Origin: Stenotrophomonas sp. SAM-B
GTDB lineage: Bacteria; Pseudomonadota; Gammaproteobacteria; Xanthomonadales; Xanthomonadaceae
Assembly (NCBI RefSeq): GCF_013387485.1
Contig: NZ_JABBXB010000002.1
Location: 248,001 to 312,000, forward strand
Reading direction: 5' to 3'
DNA length: 64,000 bases
The stretch's first letter is position 1; every line of letters begins with the position of its first letter. Position numbers and translations under genes: made by a program. Under the pieces are notes generated by a model. That model saw only the letters and a list, made by a program, of their open reading frames with translations. It was not told the DNA's origin and ran no database searches. Positions 50,364 to 58,781 of the stretch are shown in pieces.

Positions 50364-50555
50364 TCAGGCCGACGCTTTCCCGGTGGCGTCCTCGACGACT
50401 TCACCGAGTTTCTTGAAGAGCTCGGTGAAGAACCCTTCGATCTGCGTTTTACCCACGACCACCAGGATGCCCGCGATCACGGCGGCCAGCAGGCCGTACT
50501 CGAGCGCGGTCACGCCATCTTCTTCCACGAGGAACTTGCGAACGGATGCATTCAT
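50364..50555 (-). CDS. flp: Flp major pilin
   Basis: A 63-residue prepilin: short basic leader MNASVRKFLVEEDG, cleavage site before VTALEYGL (Glu at +5, Tyr at +6), and a single hydrophobic helix LLAAVIAGILVVV, then a polar tail GKTQIEGFFTELFKKLGEVVED. It is the subunit of the Flp pilus. The ATG at 50555 is preferred over an in-frame start at 50576. GGGAG lies upstream. It is the first gene of the minus-strand Tad run. Confidence 0.95.
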   Translation of the reverse strand: MNASVRKFLVEEDGVTALEYGLLAAVIAGILVVVGKTQIEGFFTELFKKLGEVVEDATGKASA

Positions 50556-50689
50556 GACGGTTTCTCCCTTTCCCAATCAGAGCCCGAACGGGCGGATACA
50601 ACCCCTGGTACCGATGGTGTTGCCTGGCTCCGCCAGGACGTCCATCTCGACCGCGCATCCTGCGCAGTGCGGCCCTTTACAGGCCTGCG

Positions 50690-50809
50690 CTATCGGCCGG
50701 GCAGTGCCCGGGCGACGTCATTGGCGGCAGATCGCGCTGGACAGTGCGTCACTGCTGCCGGCACGCGGCTGTGGCAATGAAGGCACTGAAGATGAAGGTT
50801 GCTGTCCAT
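50690..50809 (-). CDS. Possible 39-residue small protein with CxxC
   Basis: A short frame MDSNLHLQCLHCHSRVPAAV... preceded by the strong purine run GGGGGA, with CLHC and HC motifs that could bind a metal. It is upstream of flp and in the same direction. Coding status is uncertain because the length is small and no family is known. Confidence 0.3.
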   Translation of the reverse strand: MDSNLHLQCLHCHSRVPAAVTHCPARSAANDVARALPGR

Positions 50810-51020
50810 GGCGTTCCCCCTGTGTTGCAGTATCACCGCGTCGGTATGTCCGGGCGTCCTGATCGGGATGCTCGACGAATCGCGCGGTATCCAATACACA
50901 AAATCGGCAGACCCGGATTCAACTTTAGGGAAAACCGGCCAGCTGCTGCTGCGCTGTATGAACCTGATGTAATGGCGCCAAAGTGAAGTGCGGGTGGAGA
51001 TTATGTGAGTACAGCGTGAT

Positions 51021-51034
51021 GTCAACTATTTGAC
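51021..51034. promoter_or_regulatory. GTCAA-N4-TTGAC palindrome upstream of AraC
   Basis: A 5-bp inverted repeat with a 4-base spacer in the A/T-rich part of the divergent region. A candidate operator; no regulator is implied directly. Confidence 0.3.
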
Positions 51035-51346
51035 GGTGTGCGGACGCGCACAAACGCTGGGTTTCACGGGTGTCGGCCATATTTGTGATGGCGATTGTGA
51101 TTCTGTTTACCTGGCGTCCAGTTCGGGCATACTTGCCAAAAATGCGCATCGAATCACGCGCGCAGAGCGGCAAGGCATCTGCTGAATCATTTAGCGGGAA
51201 TCGCCGGATGATCTGGATGGGCGGGCAGGAGGAATCGCCGCGGCAGGTTGGCCGTAACAGAATGCGCAGCAGGAATCGAAGGAGTGCGCACCCGGTGGCC
51301 ATGTGGCGAGGCACCGGGGGTCCAGGCCAAAGGGGGCATCACTGTC

Positions 51347-52336
51347 ATGGTAGATGGTGTGGTGGATAACCGGATCGAGAGCGGGCTAAGGGCATTCGAC
51401 CTGGCGTCGCTCAGTGGTGTGTTGCGTGTCTGCGACCTGGAAATGGTGCTGCTGGATGGCAACGGCCCGCGGGCCGCCATTGAATCGCAGGTGCACGACG
51501 AGGCATTGTTCTGCACGGCCGTGAGCGGGTTCCATTTCCGCGGCCGTTTCATGCTGCCGCAGGACTGGTGCCTGCTGGGTCTGATCCACGCCACTGACGA
51601 GAATGTGAGCTGGTGCCACGGCATGCCGCTCGCGGCGGGGATGGCGTTGACCGTTCTGCCCGAAGGCATCAGCGAGTTCACGCTCAGCGCCGGCACCCAC
51701 CTCACCCTGCTGCTCGCGCCGATGCAGCGGGTGCAGCGCAAACTGACCGAACTCAGCCTGCGCAACACACTGCCTTCGGGCCAGGCGCTGTCCCTGTTCC
51801 ACGTTGGCGCGGCCGGCGGCGCGGCGCGCTTGATGCAACGCTATGCCGATGTGCATGCCGCGCTGGCCGGGCAGGGCGGCGCCTTGGCGGCCGATGCCGT
51901 GGATACCCTGCTGCATGACCACATCCAGGCCCTGTTGGGCGCCGGCAGCGACGACCACCCGACCTGCAGCCGGGGCCGGCGTACGCATTATCTGATCGCC
52001 CAGCGCGCCGAGAACTTCATGCGGCTCAATCTGCGTCGCTATATCTACATGAATGAAATCTGCGACGCGGCCGGTGTCAGCGAGCGCGCGCTGCGATATG
52101 CCTTCGAAGACCTGTTCGGCACCTCGCCCAACCGCTATCTCTCGATGCTGCGCCTGTGCGCCGCATGCCGCGGGTTGTCGATGGCCGATTCCAGCCGCAA
52201 ATCGGTCAAGGCGATCGCGCTCAGTTGCGGACTGTGGGACCTGTCGCGCTTTGCCGATAATTATCGGCGCGTGTTCGGCGAGCTGCCACGCGACACACTG
52301 ATGCGCGCGCCCGCGCAGATGGGCAGCCCGGCCTGA
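51347..52336 (+). CDS. AraC-family regulator between Tad and adhesin
   Basis: A 329-residue regulator. The N-terminal domain (to about residue 210) is of unknown fold with strand-like segments (FHFRGRFMLPQDWCLLGLIHATDE; MALTVLPEGISEFTLSAGTHLTLLLAP). The C-terminal double helix-turn-helix has YIYMNEICDAAGVSERALRYAFEDLFGTSPNRYLSMLRL and SVKAIALSCGLWDLSRFADNYRRVFGELPRDTL. Its position between the Tad locus and the adhesin gene points to control of attachment factors. ATG 51347 follows GGGGG; an in-frame start at 51248 is possible. Confidence 0.87.
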   Translation: MVDGVVDNRIESGLRAFDLASLSGVLRVCDLEMVLLDGNGPRAAIESQVHDEALFCTAVSGFHFRGRFMLPQDWCLLGLIHATDENVSWCHGMPLAAGMALTVLPEGISEFTLSAGTHLTLLLAPMQRVQRKLTELSLRNTLPSGQALSLFHVGAAGGAARLMQRYADVHAALAGQGGALAADAVDTLLHDHIQALLGAGSDDHPTCSRGRRTHYLIAQRAENFMRLNLRRYIYMNEICDAAGVSERALRYAFEDLFGTSPNRYLSMLRLCAACRGLSMADSSRKSVKAIALSCGLWDLSRFADNYRRVFGELPRDTLMRAPAQMGSPA

Positions 52337-52374
52337 GCATTCAAAAGAGTATCCACACGCCGGCCGTGCACATA

Positions 52375-52452
52375 TTCGGCAACCTGCCGAAATTGCCCAT
52401 CACCCTGCCGGTTTTACCCGTCGTCTTGCCGGAACGCACGTTTGTGCTGCCG
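52375..52452 (+). repeat. Four TGCCG words spaced exactly 21 bp
   Basis: TGCCG occurs at 52385, 52406, 52427 and 52448, every 21 bp, and the first is paired with an upstream inverted copy (TTCGGCA at 52375-52381, TGCCGAA at 52385-52391). The 21-bp phase places sites on one face of DNA, as for AraC-type direct repeats. Read in frame from 52366 it could also encode a small peptide with LP every seven residues, ending TAA at 52456-52458. The array lies 100 bp before the adhesin start. Confidence 0.7.
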
Positions 52453-52551
52453 GAATAAAGTGCTCGCGGTTTGACCCCTCGACTGTAATGACATCCACGT
52501 GCCGTCAGGCACCGGTGATGTTCAACGCATTCGTACACGGGGGAATACCTG

Positions 52552-55500
52552 ATGAACCGTATTTTTCGATTGGTGTGGAGCCACCGGCTGAATGCCTTGG
52601 TGGTCGTCTCCGAAATCGCCACCGCGCGTGGCAGCCTGGCCGCCGGTCCGGTCGTGGTGCATCTGAAGGTGCCGATGTCGGTGCTGTCGCTGGGTCTCTC
52701 GCTGGCGCTGTGCACGGGCAGTGCATGGGCCGGTGAGAACCAGACGCTCACCGACCTGCAGGCACTGACTGCAAAGTACACCGCGCCACTGCCGGTGAAG
52801 CTCGATGCGGAAGTGGCACTGGCAGCGGCGGCACGTGATCGTGGCACGGCGCCCCTGCTGAGCGTGGATGCCAAGGTCAACCTCAACCTCGGTACCCCCA
52901 CGGCCAACCGGCCGGCGCTGCAGGTGCACGCCGCTGCGCAGGCGAACGCGGACCTGCCCAGGCGCGTTGCTGCACCGGGCGCCCAGGTGGCGGCCCTGGC
53001 CGATCTGGGCATCGCGGCAGGCACGGGTAACGGTGCCGGGTTGAATGCCAATACCGACATCGATGCGGTCGCCTCGGTTGCGCCGACGGCAGCGACGGTG
53101 CGGGTGCCGGTCAAGGCCGAGGCGAAGGCGAGCGTGGCGGTCGCGGCGACGCCGTCACCACGGAAGGCCGCACTGGAGGCCAATGTCGATGCGGCGGCAC
53201 AGGCACGCCTGGCGGCGGCCGAGGTGGAGGCCAGGGCGGCGCTGATCGCTGACGCCACGGTGACGCCCGACGCGCCGGATGCCGTGCAGGCATCGCTGGC
53301 CAGCAATGTCGCTGGTGGTGTGCGCGTGGATGCGCTCGGCCACGTGGTCGATCCGGCCGACCGCAATCCCAAGCTCGTGGACGCCGGCGTCAGTGCCGTG
53401 CAGACCAGCTCGATGGCGCTGGCGCCGAATGGTCTGGGCAACGCGCTGGGCGGAGTGTTGAACGGTGTCGGCGGGGCGGTCGGCGGCCTGCTCGACGGCG
53501 TCGGCACTACCGTGGGTGCCATCACCACGCCGGTGCTGGGCGCGGTCGGTGCGATCACCACGCCGATCCTGGGCACCGTCTTCCCGGCGCCGACCGCGCT
53601 GCCGCCGGGCAGCCCGAAGGGGCCGGCCCCGGCCGATCCCAACGCCGGTCTGGTCATCGGCACCGGCGGCCTGGTCGGCTCGCTCTCGCAGCTGGTCGGC
53701 CCGACCGCGCAGGGGCTGCTGGGCGGCGACGGCTATGTCCGCAACGGCAACCTGAAAGTCAGCAGCGCCAACGTCATGCAGACCTATTCGGTCACCAACG
53801 TGCTCGGCCTGCCGGTGGTCAACCTGACCCCGGTCGGTACGCTGCTGGATGGGCTGGGCGGGGCAAGCACCGGCGGCAGCTCGCACCTGACCCTGATCGG
53901 TGGCGTCACCTCCGACAGCTACATCTACAACATCAACAACGGCGACCCCAACGGCCTGCTCGGGCTGGTGCTGCCGGACGGTTCGCCGGCATGGTCGAAC
54001 CAGTGCGTCAATCTGCTGGTGGCCAGCGTGGACTGCTGGGCGGTCAATGCCGCGCAGGACTACCAGGTGCTGGTGGGTGATGGCGCCTATGCCAATGGGT
54101 CCAGGGAAGTGGTAATCGGTGCGAACGCACGCCACGAGCTGCCGCAGCAGGACGCCAACCTGGCGTTCCCGGGCGCAGGGGTCAACGACCCGACCGATCC
54201 GACGGGCGTGCCGACGGCCGATTACGCAGCGCGCATGGGCCACTCCGTGGTGGTCGGCGACAGTGCGACGGGCACTGCCAACGGGCAGACCATTCTCGGC
54301 TCGGAGGCGACCTCCAACCAGGCCAACAGCGTGGCGCTGGGCTACCGCTCGGCGGCCAACCGCGGTGCGCAGGCCAGCTACAGCGCGTATGGCTTGACCG
54401 CCGCGCAGGTATCGGCTGGTGAAGTCTCGGTCGGCTTCGCCGGCGGCGAGCGCCAGATCAGCAACGTGGCTGCCGGCAGTGCCGCCACCGATGCGGTCAA
54501 CGTGGCCCAGCTGCAGGGCGCGATCTCGCAGATCGATGCGGTCGGCACGCTGGCGGTGACCTACGACGACGACGGGGCTGGCGGTGCGGACTACCGCCGC
54601 GTCACCCTCGGCGGCGGCACCGGCACCACCACGATCGCCAACCTGGCCAACGGCGCGGTCGACGCGGGCAGCACCGAGGCGGTCAATGGCGCCCAGCTGT
54701 TCGATACCAACAGCGCGATCGTCGACTACTTCGGCGGTGTCACCGCCTACGATCCCGCCACCGGTGCGTGGACCGCACCCAGCTTCCAGATCTCCACGAT
54801 CTCCAGCGGTGGCGCTGTCGCGCAGGGGGTGTACGACAACGCCAGCGACGCGTTCTCCGCGGTGGATGGCTCGCTGGTCAACCTCAACACGCAGATCACC
54901 GACATCCGCAATGGCGTCGGCAGCCGCTACCTGAAGATCAACTCGACCGGCGCCGAGGCCGCCGCAACCGGATTGGACAGCATCGCTGTCGGCACCGGGG
55001 CCTCGGCCACGGCCGCCAACAGCATTGCCGTGGGCGCCGGTGCCGTGGCCGATCGCGAGGGTACGGTGTCGGTCGGCGCGGCCGGTGCCGAACGCCAGGT
55101 GGTCAATGTCGCCGCCGGCACCCAGGCGACCGATGCCGTCAACGTGGCCCAGCTGGACGCCTCCGAGCAGGGCGCGCTGCGCTACGACCTCAACCCCGAT
55201 GGCAGCGTGAACTACGCCAGCGCCACGCTGGGCAACGGGACCGGTGCGACCACCCTCAGCAACGTCGCTGCCGGCAGTGTCACTGCCACCAGCAACGAAG
55301 CGATCAACGGCGCCCAGCTGTTCAATGCCAATCAGGCCGTGGCCACGCATCTGGGCGGTGGTGCAGCGCTGGACGCCAACGGTCTGGTCACCGCCCCGAC
55401 CTACACGATCAACAACGTGGCCAGCGATGGCCAGGTCACCGCCGGCAGCTATGACAACGTCGGCAGCGCCTTCGACGCCGTGAGCACCTCGTTGGCCAAC

Positions 55501-57078
55501 GTCGCCGACCAGACCGACACCGTGGACCGCCTGGCCGTGAAGTACGACGCCGATGCCAGTGGCAACGCGACCAACACCATCACCCTGGCCGGCGATGCCA
55601 GCGGCGCGGCGGTGGCACTGACCAACCTGGCCGACGGACGCGTGCTGGCCGGCAGCCTGGATGCGGTCAACGGCAACCAGCTGTTCCAGACCAACGCGGC
55701 CCTGGTCGGGTACTTCGGCGGCACCACCAACTTCGATGGCAACACCGGCATCTGGACCGCGCCGACCTTCCGCATCTCCTCGATCGCCACCGATGGCAGC
55801 GTCATCGCCAACGACTACAGCGACGTCACCGTGGCCTTCTCGGCGGTGGATACCTCGCTGACCAACCTCAATACCCGGATCGACCAGATCCAGCCGGGCG
55901 GCAACAGCCAGTACGTGCAGGTCAACTCGACCAAGGGCGCGGCCACCGCGGGCGGTGCCGACAGCATCGCGATCGGGCCGCTGGCGAGTGCGGCGGGCAG
56001 CGGCAGCGCGGCGATCGGCGATGGCGCCAGCGCCAGCGCGGACAACAGCGTCGCCCTCGGTGCCGGCTCGGTGGCCAGTGTGGGCGCACAGGCCGGGTAT
56101 ACCGGTGCCTACGGCCAGGCCGGTGCCAGCAACTCGGTGGGCGAGGTGGCCGTCGGCAGCACAGGTGCCGAGCGCAAGGTCACCCACGTAGCCGATGGGT
56201 CGGAGCGCTATGACGCGGTCAATGTCGGCCAGCTGCAGAACGGTGTGAACTACGCGATCACCGAGTCCAAGGCCTACACCGACACGCAGATCAACAACAT
56301 CAACAACGGCACCTCCGGGATGTTCCAGGTCAACAACACGCAGAACCTGGCGGCGCCGGCCGCGACCGGCGACAACGCAGTGGCAGGCGGTGCCGGGGCT
56401 GCCGCCGCAGGCAGCAACGCGACCGCACTGGGCAACGGAGCCAGCGCACAGGGCAGCAACAGCGTCGCGCTGGGCGCCGGTTCGGTGGCCAACCGGGCCA
56501 ACACGGTCTCGGTGGGCAGCAGTGGCGCGGAACGGCAGGTCGCCAACGTCGCCGACGGCAGCGAAGCCACCGACGCGGTCAACGTTCGCCAGCTGCAGGC
56601 GTCCCAGCAGGGCACGATCCGTTACGACACCAACGTCAACGGCACCACCAACCTCAACAGCGTGACACTCGGCAGTACCGCCAGTGGTCCGACCACGGTG
56701 CGCAACGTCGCCCCCGGCACCGCAGGTACCGATGCCGTCAACGTGGACCAGCTGCGCAGCGGCATGGCCCAGACCCTGGACTGGTCCAAGGCGTACACCG
56801 ACGAGCGCATGGACTCGTTCGACCGCAATCTGCAGAAGACCGACAACCGCGCCTCGGCCGGCGTCGCCTCGGCCATGGCGGTGGCCGCCCTGCCGCAGCC
56901 CTATGAAGCCGGCCGCAGCATGGCCTCGCTCGCCGCAGGCAGCTTCAACGGCGAATCCGGCGTGGCGGTGGGCATTTCGGGGGTCTCCGAAGGCGGCCGC
57001 TGGATCTACAAGTTCAGCGGTTCGACCAACAGCCGCGGCGATGGTGGTGTCGCGGTAGGTGCCGGCATCCAGTGGTGA
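52552..57078 (+). CDS. Trimeric autotransporter adhesin (YadA-like)
   Basis: A 1508-residue type Vc autotransporter. The N-terminus MNRIFRLVWSHRLNALVVVSEIATARG is an extended signal peptide region. Next comes an A/V-rich segment, a glycine-rich hydrophobic repeat (GVLNGVGGAVGGLLDGVG, TTPVLGAVGAITTPILGTV) and a two-cysteine patch (NQCVNLLVASVDCWAV). Head and stalk modules with repeating neck motifs (ERQ-NVA-GS-ATDAVNV-QL, at least four copies) follow. The last ~77 residues (NRASAGVASAMAVAAL ... GAGIQW) form the YadA membrane anchor. It mediates adhesion or aggregation. GGGG precedes the ATG. Confidence 0.95.
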   Translation: MNRIFRLVWSHRLNALVVVSEIATARGSLAAGPVVVHLKVPMSVLSLGLSLALCTGSAWAGENQTLTDLQALTAKYTAPLPVKLDAEVALAAAARDRGTAPLLSVDAKVNLNLGTPTANRPALQVHAAAQANADLPRRVAAPGAQVAALADLGIAAGTGNGAGLNANTDIDAVASVAPTAATVRVPVKAEAKASVAVAATPSPRKAALEANVDAAAQARLAAAEVEARAALIADATVTPDAPDAVQASLASNVAGGVRVDALGHVVDPADRNPKLVDAGVSAVQTSSMALAPNGLGNALGGVLNGVGGAVGGLLDGVGTTVGAITTPVLGAVGAITTPILGTVFPAPTALPPGSPKGPAPADPNAGLVIGTGGLVGSLSQLVGPTAQGLLGGDGYVRNGNLKVSSANVMQTYSVTNVLGLPVVNLTPVGTLLDGLGGASTGGSSHLTLIGGVTSDSYIYNINNGDPNGLLGLVLPDGSPAWSNQCVNLLVASVDCWAVNAAQDYQVLVGDGAYANGSREVVIGANARHELPQQDANLAFPGAGVNDPTDPTGVPTADYAARMGHSVVVGDSATGTANGQTILGSEATSNQANSVALGYRSAANRGAQASYSAYGLTAAQVSAGEVSVGFAGGERQISNVAAGSAATDAVNVAQLQGAISQIDAVGTLAVTYDDDGAGGADYRRVTLGGGTGTTTIANLANGAVDAGSTEAVNGAQLFDTNSAIVDYFGGVTAYDPATGAWTAPSFQISTISSGGAVAQGVYDNASDAFSAVDGSLVNLNTQITDIRNGVGSRYLKINSTGAEAAATGLDSIAVGTGASATAANSIAVGAGAVADREGTVSVGAAGAERQVVNVAAGTQATDAVNVAQLDASEQGALRYDLNPDGSVNYASATLGNGTGATTLSNVAAGSVTATSNEAINGAQLFNANQAVATHLGGGAALDANGLVTAPTYTINNVASDGQVTAGSYDNVGSAFDAVSTSLANVADQTDTVDRLAVKYDADASGNATNTITLAGDASGAAVALTNLADGRVLAGSLDAVNGNQLFQTNAALVGYFGGTTNFDGNTGIWTAPTFRISSIATDGSVIANDYSDVTVAFSAVDTSLTNLNTRIDQIQPGGNSQYVQVNSTKGAATAGGADSIAIGPLASAAGSGSAAIGDGASASADNSVALGAGSVASVGAQAGYTGAYGQAGASNSVGEVAVGSTGAERKVTHVADGSERYDAVNVGQLQNGVNYAITESKAYTDTQINNINNGTSGMFQVNNTQNLAAPAATGDNAVAGGAGAAAAGSNATALGNGASAQGSNSVALGAGSVANRANTVSVGSSGAERQVANVADGSEATDAVNVRQLQASQQGTIRYDTNVNGTTNLNSVTLGSTASGPTTVRNVAPGTAGTDAVNVDQLRSGMAQTLDWSKAYTDERMDSFDRNLQKTDNRASAGVASAMAVAALPQPYEAGRSMASLAAGSFNGESGVAVGISGVSEGGRWIYKFSGSTNSRGDGGVAVGAGIQW

Positions 57079-57150
57079 CCGCGTCCGGTGCCGGCGCGCC
57101 GCCGGCACCGGGCCCCACGGTCCGCATTCAACGTTTACAGGGGGAACACC

Positions 57151-58002
57151 ATGCACATGCAGCCCGCATCCATTTCCCAGGGTCCGCTGCTGCGGTCACT
57201 GGGCCTGAGCCTGGCAGCCCTGCTGCTCGGCGCCTGCGCCAGCCACGGCGAGCAACGCGCCACACCGCCTGATACCGCCGTCGACGCCGAGGCGGTGAGC
57301 TTCCCGGATCCAGCCAGGGCCAGCCTGAAGGAAGGACTGTTCGTGGACGTCGACAACCTGCGCCTGTTCGCCCGTGGCATGAGCAAACGCCAGCTGTACG
57401 CTCTGCTGGGCACCCCACATTTCGGCGAGGGCATGTGGGGCGTGCGCGAATGGAACTACCTGTTCAATTTCCGCAGTAGTCCGGGTGGGGATTACTTCAC
57501 CTGTCAGTTCAAAGTCGATTTCGATGGCAAGGGCATTGCCCAGGCAGCGCACTGGAAGCCGCAGGCCTGCGCCGCCGTGCTCGATCCACCGCGCCCACCC
57601 ACGCCACCGGCGCCCGCGCCGATGCCGAGCGAGCCGCTGCGGCTGGCGGCGGATGCGATGTTCGCGTTCGACAGTGCTGTGCTCACGCCCGAAGGACGCC
57701 GCAACGTGGAGACCTTGCTGCAGCAGGTGCGCGATGCCAGCCGGGTGCAGACCATCCAGGTGATCGGCTACACCGACCGGATCGGCAGCGACCGCTACAA
57801 CCTGGTGCTGTCGCAACGGCGTGCCGAGGCCGTGCGCGACGCGCTGGTGGCCGGCGGCGTACCGGCGGCGGCGATCGTCGCCGAAGGGCGGGGCAAGGCC
57901 GACCCGCTGGTGCAGTGCGAGCAGGCGCAGCGCAACGCGCTGATCGTCTGTCTGGCGCCGAACCGACGCGTCGAGCTGTCCGGCAAGGCACTGCCGCGCT
58001 GA
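57151..58002 (+). CDS. tpgA: TpgA-like OmpA/BamE-domain lipoprotein for the adhesin
   Basis: A 283-residue lipoprotein with lipobox LAALLLGAC (Cys near residue 29). The first half has an SmpA/OmlA (BamE-like) fold segment (FVDVDNLRLFARGMSKRQLYALLGTPHFG...EWNYLFNF), then a proline-rich linker and the OmpA-like peptidoglycan-binding domain (AMFAFDSAVLTPEGRRNVE; VIGYTDRIGSDRYNLVLSQRRAEAVRDAL). This domain order matches TpgA, which anchors a trimeric autotransporter to peptidoglycan in Acinetobacter. It begins 72 bp after the adhesin stop, so the two are probably cotranscribed. Confidence 0.88.
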   Translation: MHMQPASISQGPLLRSLGLSLAALLLGACASHGEQRATPPDTAVDAEAVSFPDPARASLKEGLFVDVDNLRLFARGMSKRQLYALLGTPHFGEGMWGVREWNYLFNFRSSPGGDYFTCQFKVDFDGKGIAQAAHWKPQACAAVLDPPRPPTPPAPAPMPSEPLRLAADAMFAFDSAVLTPEGRRNVETLLQQVRDASRVQTIQVIGYTDRIGSDRYNLVLSQRRAEAVRDALVAGGVPAAAIVAEGRGKADPLVQCEQAQRNALIVCLAPNRRVELSGKALPR

Positions 58003-58164
58003 GCGCCGGCGGACCGCGTCCTCCTTCCCCGTGTGCATACCCGGCCGGCGCACGCATGCGCCGGCGAGGGACCGTCTTGACCTGGCGCGTCGTCCGCACA
58101 GCGTGATGTCTCCCCCGTCATCGTCCTGAAGACGGCGCGCTAGGTCATCTTCCTCCCGCTCCGG

Positions 58165-58191
58165 GGCGGCTGCAGGCGATCTGCAGCCGCC
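58165..58191 (+). terminator. Stem-loop after the adhesin-tpgA pair
   Basis: GGCGGCTGCAG-GCGAT-CTGCAGCCGCC is a perfect 11-bp stem with a 5-base loop and a short T-containing tail (GTTTCC). It lies between the convergent tpgA and fasciclin genes and may end either transcript. Confidence 0.65.
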
Positions 58192-58199
58192 GTTTCCGG

Positions 58200-58781
58200 T
58201 TACGGCATCAGCACTTTGTCGATCACGTGGATCACGCCGTTGCTCTGCTTCACATCGGCGATGGTGACGTGGGCGACCTGGCCCTTGCTGTCGGTCAGGG
58301 TGATGCCCTTGCCAACGACGCGGGCGGTCAGCGCTTCGCCCTCGACCGTGGTGAGGCTGGCCTTACCGCCACCCTGCTTGATCTTCGCCATCAGGTCGGT
58401 GGCAGTGACCGCACCCGGAACGACGTGATAGGTCAGGATCCTGGTCAGGTCCGCCTTCTTTTCAGGCTTCAGCAGCCCTTCCACGGTGCCCTTCGGCAGG
58501 GCCGCGAACGCGGCGTTGGTCGGTGCGAACACGGTGAACGGGCCTGCACCCTTGAGCGTGTCGACCAGGCCGGTGGCCTTGACCGCGGCAACCAGCGTGG
58601 TGTGGTCCTTGGAATTGACGGCGTTGTCGATGATGTCCTTGTTGGCATACATCGCCGCACCGCCGACCATCGGATTGCTGTGCGCCGCCATCGGCGCGGC
58701 CGGGGCCTGCGCGAAGACGAGCGGGGACGCGGTGGCGGCAAGACAACCGATCAGTACGAGGCCTGCGAACTGGATCTTCAT
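58200..58781 (-). CDS. Fasciclin (FAS1) domain protein
   Basis: A 193-residue exported protein with signal peptide [19 protein letters not shown] and one FAS1 domain: [40 protein letters not shown], then [16 protein letters not shown] and [16 protein letters not shown]1 proteins mediate cell adhesion or surface interactions. GGGAG precedes the ATG at 58781. Its position beside the adhesin genes fits a surface role but is not proof. Confidence 0.93.

Follow-up and report, generated by a model that had tools for sequence, protein, structure and literature searches.

The window, by which we mean the whole 64-kb stretch of Stenotrophomonas sp. SAM-B DNA analyzed, carries on its plus strand a gene for an AraC/XylS-type regulator of 329 amino acids (51347 to 52336; Pfam HTH_18), followed by a gene for a trimeric autotransporter adhesin of 1508 amino acids (52552 to 57078). 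The predicted structure of the regulator has its strands in the N-terminal and its helices in the C-terminal part, and it matched CuxR, ToxT, AraC and MarA chains in structure comparison. The model thus has the AraC/XylS architecture, with a predicted N-terminal beta-barrel and a C-terminal DNA-binding domain of two helix-turn-helix motifs. The adhesin has the ESPR signal peptide, head, stalk and membrane anchor of a YadA-type protein (Pfam ESPR, YadA_head, YadA_stalk, YadA_anchor), and GGGGGA at 52539 to 52544 (plus strand) is its likely ribosome-binding site. An OmpA/TpgA-like partner gene lies downstream on the same strand (57088 to 58002; Pfam OmpA, 2.6e-22, and BamE, 1.4e-12) and is probably co-transcribed with the adhesin gene. 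The order of an adhesin and then an OmpA-type peptidoglycan-associated partner is that of the trimeric autotransporter and TpgA operon, although the partner matches the NCBIfam TpgA model (NF047726) at 5.6e-49 with 166.7 bits, under the cut-off of 350.

The gap between the regulator and adhesin genes (52337 to 52551, 215 bp) contains four TGCCG words. Direct reading of the window placed their starts at 52385, 52406, 52427 and 52448, each 21 bp apart, so that the exact phasing that the first-pass annotation had reported in front of the adhesin gene was verified at all four positions; the TTCGGCA that it had placed just upstream of the first word is present at 52375 to 52381. The adhesin start at 52552 is 104 bp beyond the start of the last word. 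Four TGCCG words in 21-bp phase were reached by none of 2000 dinucleotide-preserving shuffles of the gap, the best TGCCG phasing being two words, once. When any 5-mer and any period of 8–59 bp were allowed, the shuffles reached three words at most (18 of 2000), and no second ladder of at least four identical 5-mers at one such period was found elsewhere in the 64-kb window.

The array divides into four units on the plus strand: unit 1 (52385 to 52405, with TGCCG at 52385 to 52389 and G..CAT at 52395 to 52400), unit 2 (52406 to 52426), unit 3 (52427 to 52447) and unit 4 (52448 to 52468), which adjoins the -35 region. Back to back with unit 1 lies an inverted fifth unit (52367 to 52382), whose minus strand reads TGCCG and then GTGCA.

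To follow the array in relatives, we turned to a genus sample of 91 genomes. The region was recovered from 81 of them by DNA search, with matches that span the adhesin end only in two (G001 and G070), and a protein search found the regulator in 79 (E up to 1e-30). The DNA behind the regulator was read for all 79 genomes, giving 80 loci (one genome contributed twice) with no locus dropped. In 79 of the 79 genomes, three or more TGCCG words keep the 21-bp phase exactly and lie no farther than 900 bp from the regulator stop codon. The count was at least four in 70 genomes and three in nine, and each of these nine has TGCCA in phase where the missing word would be (the third in eight loci and the fourth in locus L079). 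The spacers between the words differ widely from lineage to lineage, and the 21-bp phase is kept between regulators of only 53–56% identity while the spacers diverge. The first-pass annotation had proposed that conserved TGCCG words with drifting spacers, in an alignment of adhesin upstream regions, would speak for binding sites, and that loss of the phase in close relatives would speak against its observation. The comparison favors binding sites, and the phase was found in every genome with the regulator.

The array and its neighbors are not always intact. In 7 of the 79 genomes inserted DNA has come between regulator and array, and there the array still lies 98–107 bp before the adhesin gene. 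A single in-frame stop (TGA or TAG) interrupts the regulator gene in 2 of the 79 (G024 and G076; loci L040 and L076), which keep the array. Three genomes (G057, G027 and G028; loci L017, L024, L025 and L212–L214) have regulator and array with no match to a YadA-type adhesin adjoining them, reflecting either adhesin loss or another target. Other open frames follow the array in G057 and G028, suggesting that the array has persisted there after the loss of its target gene; the G027 contig is too short for a decision.

The regulator is absent from 12 of the 91 genomes. The pattern TGCCGGA-N14-TGCCGGA, which misses arrays of other words, matched once each in 7 of these 12; each match lies within a stop-free frame of at least 150 residues, and none of the seven shows T..A.T 36 bp past its last word. 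Read backwards, the pattern matched many genus genomes as well, so a TGCCGGA pair at such spacing is by itself not specific. Nor is a bare ladder of three TGCCG words, since exact three-word patterns occur in 90 of the 91 genomes; our impression is that these are mostly coding repeats. One such ladder (G000:C3, locus L209), beside a gene that we take to be aspartate-semialdehyde dehydrogenase, has repeat-like surroundings and was set aside as chance.

Named genomes were then scanned with an alignment of 16 regulators, and the best 80 of 91 loci were kept. Among these best 80, at least three phased words were present in 67, including loci of Luteimonas abyssi, two Pseudoxanthomonas, two Fulvimonas and several Dyella. 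Rhodanobacter was mixed, with the array in two of seven loci (L164 and L165) and not in the other five (L174, L175, L185, L192 and L202). Fewer than three phased words were found in 13 of the best 80 (L166, L174, L175, L185, L192, L195–L200, L202 and L203), of which L175 carries two and L197 is masked by N. Seven of the 13 have distant regulators (37–47% identity), whereas L166, L174, L185 and L192 lack the array with regulators at 49–59% identity, and in L185 and L192 an ESPR adhesin nevertheless lies downstream. When loci without an exact ladder were scored with a profile, the scores of L175, L195 and L196 were reached by 1, 0 and 1 of 200 mononucleotide shuffles, suggesting that these loci may hold degenerate arrays; L198 and L199 were less clear (3 and 4 of 200). 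One further locus (L130) has a Stenotrophomonas-type regulator and the array on a contig titled Bacillus subtilis SK7B5 (JAHREJ010000029.1), which is probably a contaminated assembly.

The 80 genus loci and the 67 named loci were pooled, the 13 named loci with fewer than three phased words being excluded. Because the two sets share genomes, only distinct arrays were counted, which gave 92 arrays, with 41 representatives below 85% identity. TGCCG stands in unit 1 in 89 of the 92 distinct arrays, in unit 2 in 92 (named-set arrays having been kept only with at least three phased words), in unit 3 in 82, with TGCCA in the other 10, and in unit 4 in 92 by construction, this word being the anchor. 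In the named set TGCCG conservation is partly by construction, because loci were selected for having TGCCG; the second box and the -10 box played no part in the selection.

That second box emerged from 160 pooled units of 40 representatives (L079 was excluded from this profile, being anchored one unit early with TGCCA as its fourth word). A unit consists of TGCCG, then G/A, A/T and A/T, and then a weaker box with G at position 10 (60%), C at 13 (52%), A at 14 (65%) and T at 15 (50%), position 13 being C or T. It is strong in unit 1, with A at position 14 in 93% and T at position 15 in 74% of the 41 representatives, but weak in both unit 3 and unit 4. AraC/XylS operators likewise consist of direct repeats of about 21 bp with two boxes one helical turn apart, and two boxes ten bases apart within a 21-bp repeat would fit one AraC-type monomer per unit.

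Upstream of the four units the pattern is less regular. Further TGCCG words occur at -75 from the last word in 25 and at -96 in 26 of the 92 distinct arrays, that is, in about a quarter; the two are 21 bp apart, in a register shifted by 12 bp from that of the array. The inverted fifth unit, in the form TGCA-N6/7-CGGCA, was found in 19 of the 92, and CGGCA no more than 12 bp upstream of site 1 in 23 of them, but in only 1 of the 18 arrays from outside Stenotrophomonas. From this distribution it appears to be a sub-clade feature, not an ancestral one. We considered the upstream inverted repeat as a looping site and rejected it, its conservation being too poor for an essential role.

A -10-like hexamer, TGTAAT (52484 to 52489, plus strand), lies 36 bp from the start of the last TGCCG. 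At this offset T..A.T occurs in 83 of the 92 distinct arrays and in 37 of 40 representatives; the runner-up offset reaches 4 of 92. Eight of the nine exceptions read CGNAAT; the ninth, L079, which is not among the 83, reads TTGAAT when counted from its fourth word, TGCCA. The distance from array to start codon, readable in 88 of the 92 arrays, varies from 78 to 150 bp. Since the -10 distance is fixed and the start-codon distance is variable, the array is held relative to the promoter and not to the gene. The promoter-proximal unit thus lies at a fixed distance from the putative -10 box and adjoins the predicted -35 region, and transcription would start near 52496. A sigma-70 consensus scan of the plus strand from 51000 to 52700 returned no promoter, and the -10-like box came to light through comparison instead; both this negative scan and the weak -35 are what would be expected of an activator-dependent promoter. 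Directly past the putative transcription start lies an inverted repeat, GTGCC-GTCA-GGCAC (52499 to 52512), and TGCC-N2..6-GGCA occurs in the equivalent zone of 56 of the 92 distinct arrays; this may be a hairpin in the leader or one more operator. An Rfam search of 50500 to 58500 gave no match at E up to 1.

The spacing recurs at a second promoter. Away from the adhesin locus, TGCCGGA-N14-TGCCGGA was found in several genus members as TGCCGGAAAGGGC..., and the gene downstream encodes a protein with Pfam CshA_NR2 and GEVED domains. By protein search this CshA-like surface protein, with open frames from about 2,000 residues upward, is present in 18 of the 91 genus genomes, all of which have the regulator (loci L204–L208 and L215–L232). 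A 21-bp TGCCG pair precedes the gene in 15 of the 18 genomes, one of these having three words, and the last word lies 134–285 bp before the start codon. TACAAC or TATAAC stands 37 bp past the last word in 14 of these 15 promoters, the exception being L229. Visual inspection showed a phased pair with a single mismatch in L230 and in L231; L232 is unreadable. In L204 (genome G040) an interruption near the start breaks the CshA-like gene, which is open in relatives. The phased pair in 15 of 18 genomes suggests that one regulator probably controls two adhesin classes, YadA-type and CshA-like.

The window's own genome has no CshA-like gene by protein search. The exact pair TGCCGGAA-N13-TGCCGGAA occurs there once, at the adhesin locus, and with two mismatches it gave 13 matches against 15 for the backward-read control. 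A single exact pair, with mismatched copies no more frequent than in the control, fits a dedicated and not a global regulator. A 21-bp TGCCG pair within 350 bp before the regulator gene was found in 5 of the 80 genus loci, always on the minus strand, which gives no general evidence for autoregulation.

The layout resembles operators of known AraC-family activators. The XylS unit, TGCA-N6-GGNTA-N6, is 21 bp long, the MekR unit, CACC-N5-CTTCAA-N6, likewise repeats every 21 bp and MtlR has a period of 22 bp (PMC4514859). These operators, as described in that source, are likewise two-box direct repeats with one monomer per unit just upstream of -35, but they have two units, against usually four here, are built of other words and serve catabolic operons instead of a surface adhesin (PMC4514859). 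The PIP box of the AraC-type activator HrpX of Xanthomonas also consists of 5-bp direct-repeat words, with a -10 box 30–32 bp downstream as against 31 bp here; it differs in being TTCGB-N15-TTCGB, with period 20 and two copies, and in serving the type III secretion regulon (PMC3968052). We considered the array as a PIP box, but the word is TGCCG (reverse complement CGGCA) at period 21, not TTCGB at period 20; because word and period differ, it is not a PIP box. As for the target, VirF of Yersinia is an AraC-type activator of the YadA-family trimeric autotransporter adhesin gene yadA, but it is encoded on the pYV plasmid and its regulon is shared with yop genes, whereas the regulator here is encoded directly upstream of the adhesin gene (PMC4937351). 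The K279a genome paper names three YadA-family proteins, and the term AraC does not appear in its main text (PMC2643945).

The first-pass annotation had not seen such an array described, and our full-text searches of the open-licence literature agree, finding no published description of the regulator or the array. Judged by its sequence, the array is expected to work like a XylS- or HrpX-type activator operator, its unusual feature being that it generally has as many as four units. Promoters of MelR and ToxT have multiple sites as well. The best reading is an apparently undescribed AraC/XylS-type activator operator of known kind, whose array is unusually long and deeply conserved.

We assign a probability of about 0.87 to the reading that this stretch serves the adhesin operon as operator and core promoter and is contacted by the AraC-type activator encoded upstream. 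The AraC-type binding sites proposed by the first-pass annotation are strongly supported by comparison, namely by the conserved phase with drifting spacers, the fixed -10 distance, the array in all 79 genomes with the regulator and the pair at the CshA-like promoter. Points that weigh against this reading are the three genomes with regulator and array but no adjoining adhesin match, the loci that lack the array with regulators at 49–59% identity, the two regulator genes with a stop, the weak second box of the last two units and the low specificity of the TGCCGGA pair. Each 21-bp unit would be contacted by one regulator monomer through its two helix-turn-helix motifs, and because the units are two helical turns apart the four monomers would be aligned on a single face of the DNA. 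The one bound to the last unit would adjoin -35 and recruit RNA polymerase to the weak -35/-10-like promoter. We infer from the comparison both the identity of the binding protein, which would be the neighboring regulator, and the sign of regulation, which would be activation; binding would be cooperative, and a ligand or signal would act on the N-terminal beta-barrel. More tentatively, and with doubts that outweigh our confidence, we suggest that 4–6 monomers chain on the phased units to form a cooperative multi-site switch in place of the usual dimer, that this switch co-controls two unrelated classes of giant adhesin, YadA-type and CshA-type, and that the number of units (2–3 at CshA-like and 4–6 at YadA-type promoters) sets the threshold for each.

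If the neighboring AraC gene were coincidental, the array could be a platform for another DNA-binding protein, either a global regulator or a second AraC-type protein. The insertions that part the array from the regulator and leave it beside the adhesin, and its retention in the two genomes with a stop in the regulator, are in keeping with this proposal. Against it stand the co-occurrence of array and regulator in 79 of 79 genomes, the single exact pair in the window's genome, and the unit length, two-box structure and -10 distance, which are those of AraC/XylS operators; we consider it improbable. A functionless phase, produced by chance or tandem duplication, could draw on the 71% likeness of the successive stretches 52380 to 52400 and 52401 to 52421, and yet the ladder was never reached in shuffles and is the sole one of its kind in the window, the phase outlasts the divergence of the spacers, an unrelated promoter (that of the CshA-like gene) has a pair with the same spacing, and array conservation in other genera contradicts it. 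This account has next to no credibility.

The 21-bp period could also be a codon-level repeat within a short leader peptide; the first-pass annotation had left equal room for a peptide with LP at seven-residue intervals. The open frame that it described does exist, from GTG at 52366 to TAA, and the LP frame over the array has an internal stop in only 5 of the 92 distinct arrays. Two antisense frames nearly match this low count, with stops in 7 and 6 arrays (28 in the third), as against 11 and 44 in the other two sense frames. In 638 array pairs differing by 1–10 bases, TGCCG words excluded, substitutions at codon positions 1, 2 and 3 numbered 1539, 1200 and 887 over 20, 16 and 16 columns. Under a coding constraint most changes would fall at position 3, yet the fewest were found there, so the peptide is not supported; the synonymous share is 0.254 in the LP frame, between the 0.436 and 0.171 of the other two. 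A stop directly past the last LPE is present in 57 of the 92 arrays, mostly within the DNA string GGAATGA or GGATTGA, and in 15 of the 41 representatives, and an in-frame ATG or GTG lies upstream in 29 of the 92. The conserved codons with synonymous third-base changes that a peptide was predicted to leave are thus not seen, and neither start nor stop is conserved, which makes the peptide very improbable.

For Stenotrophomonas and related genera, the operator reading provides a concrete and testable switch of trimeric autotransporter adhesins, with a particular regulator gene, a likely recognition unit, a second target and the place of the promoter. Kept as it is across several genera, a four-unit array would offer a natural series for the study of how AraC-family monomers cooperate at short regular spacing, and the phase kept in relatives suggests how these bacteria turn on sticky surface proteins.
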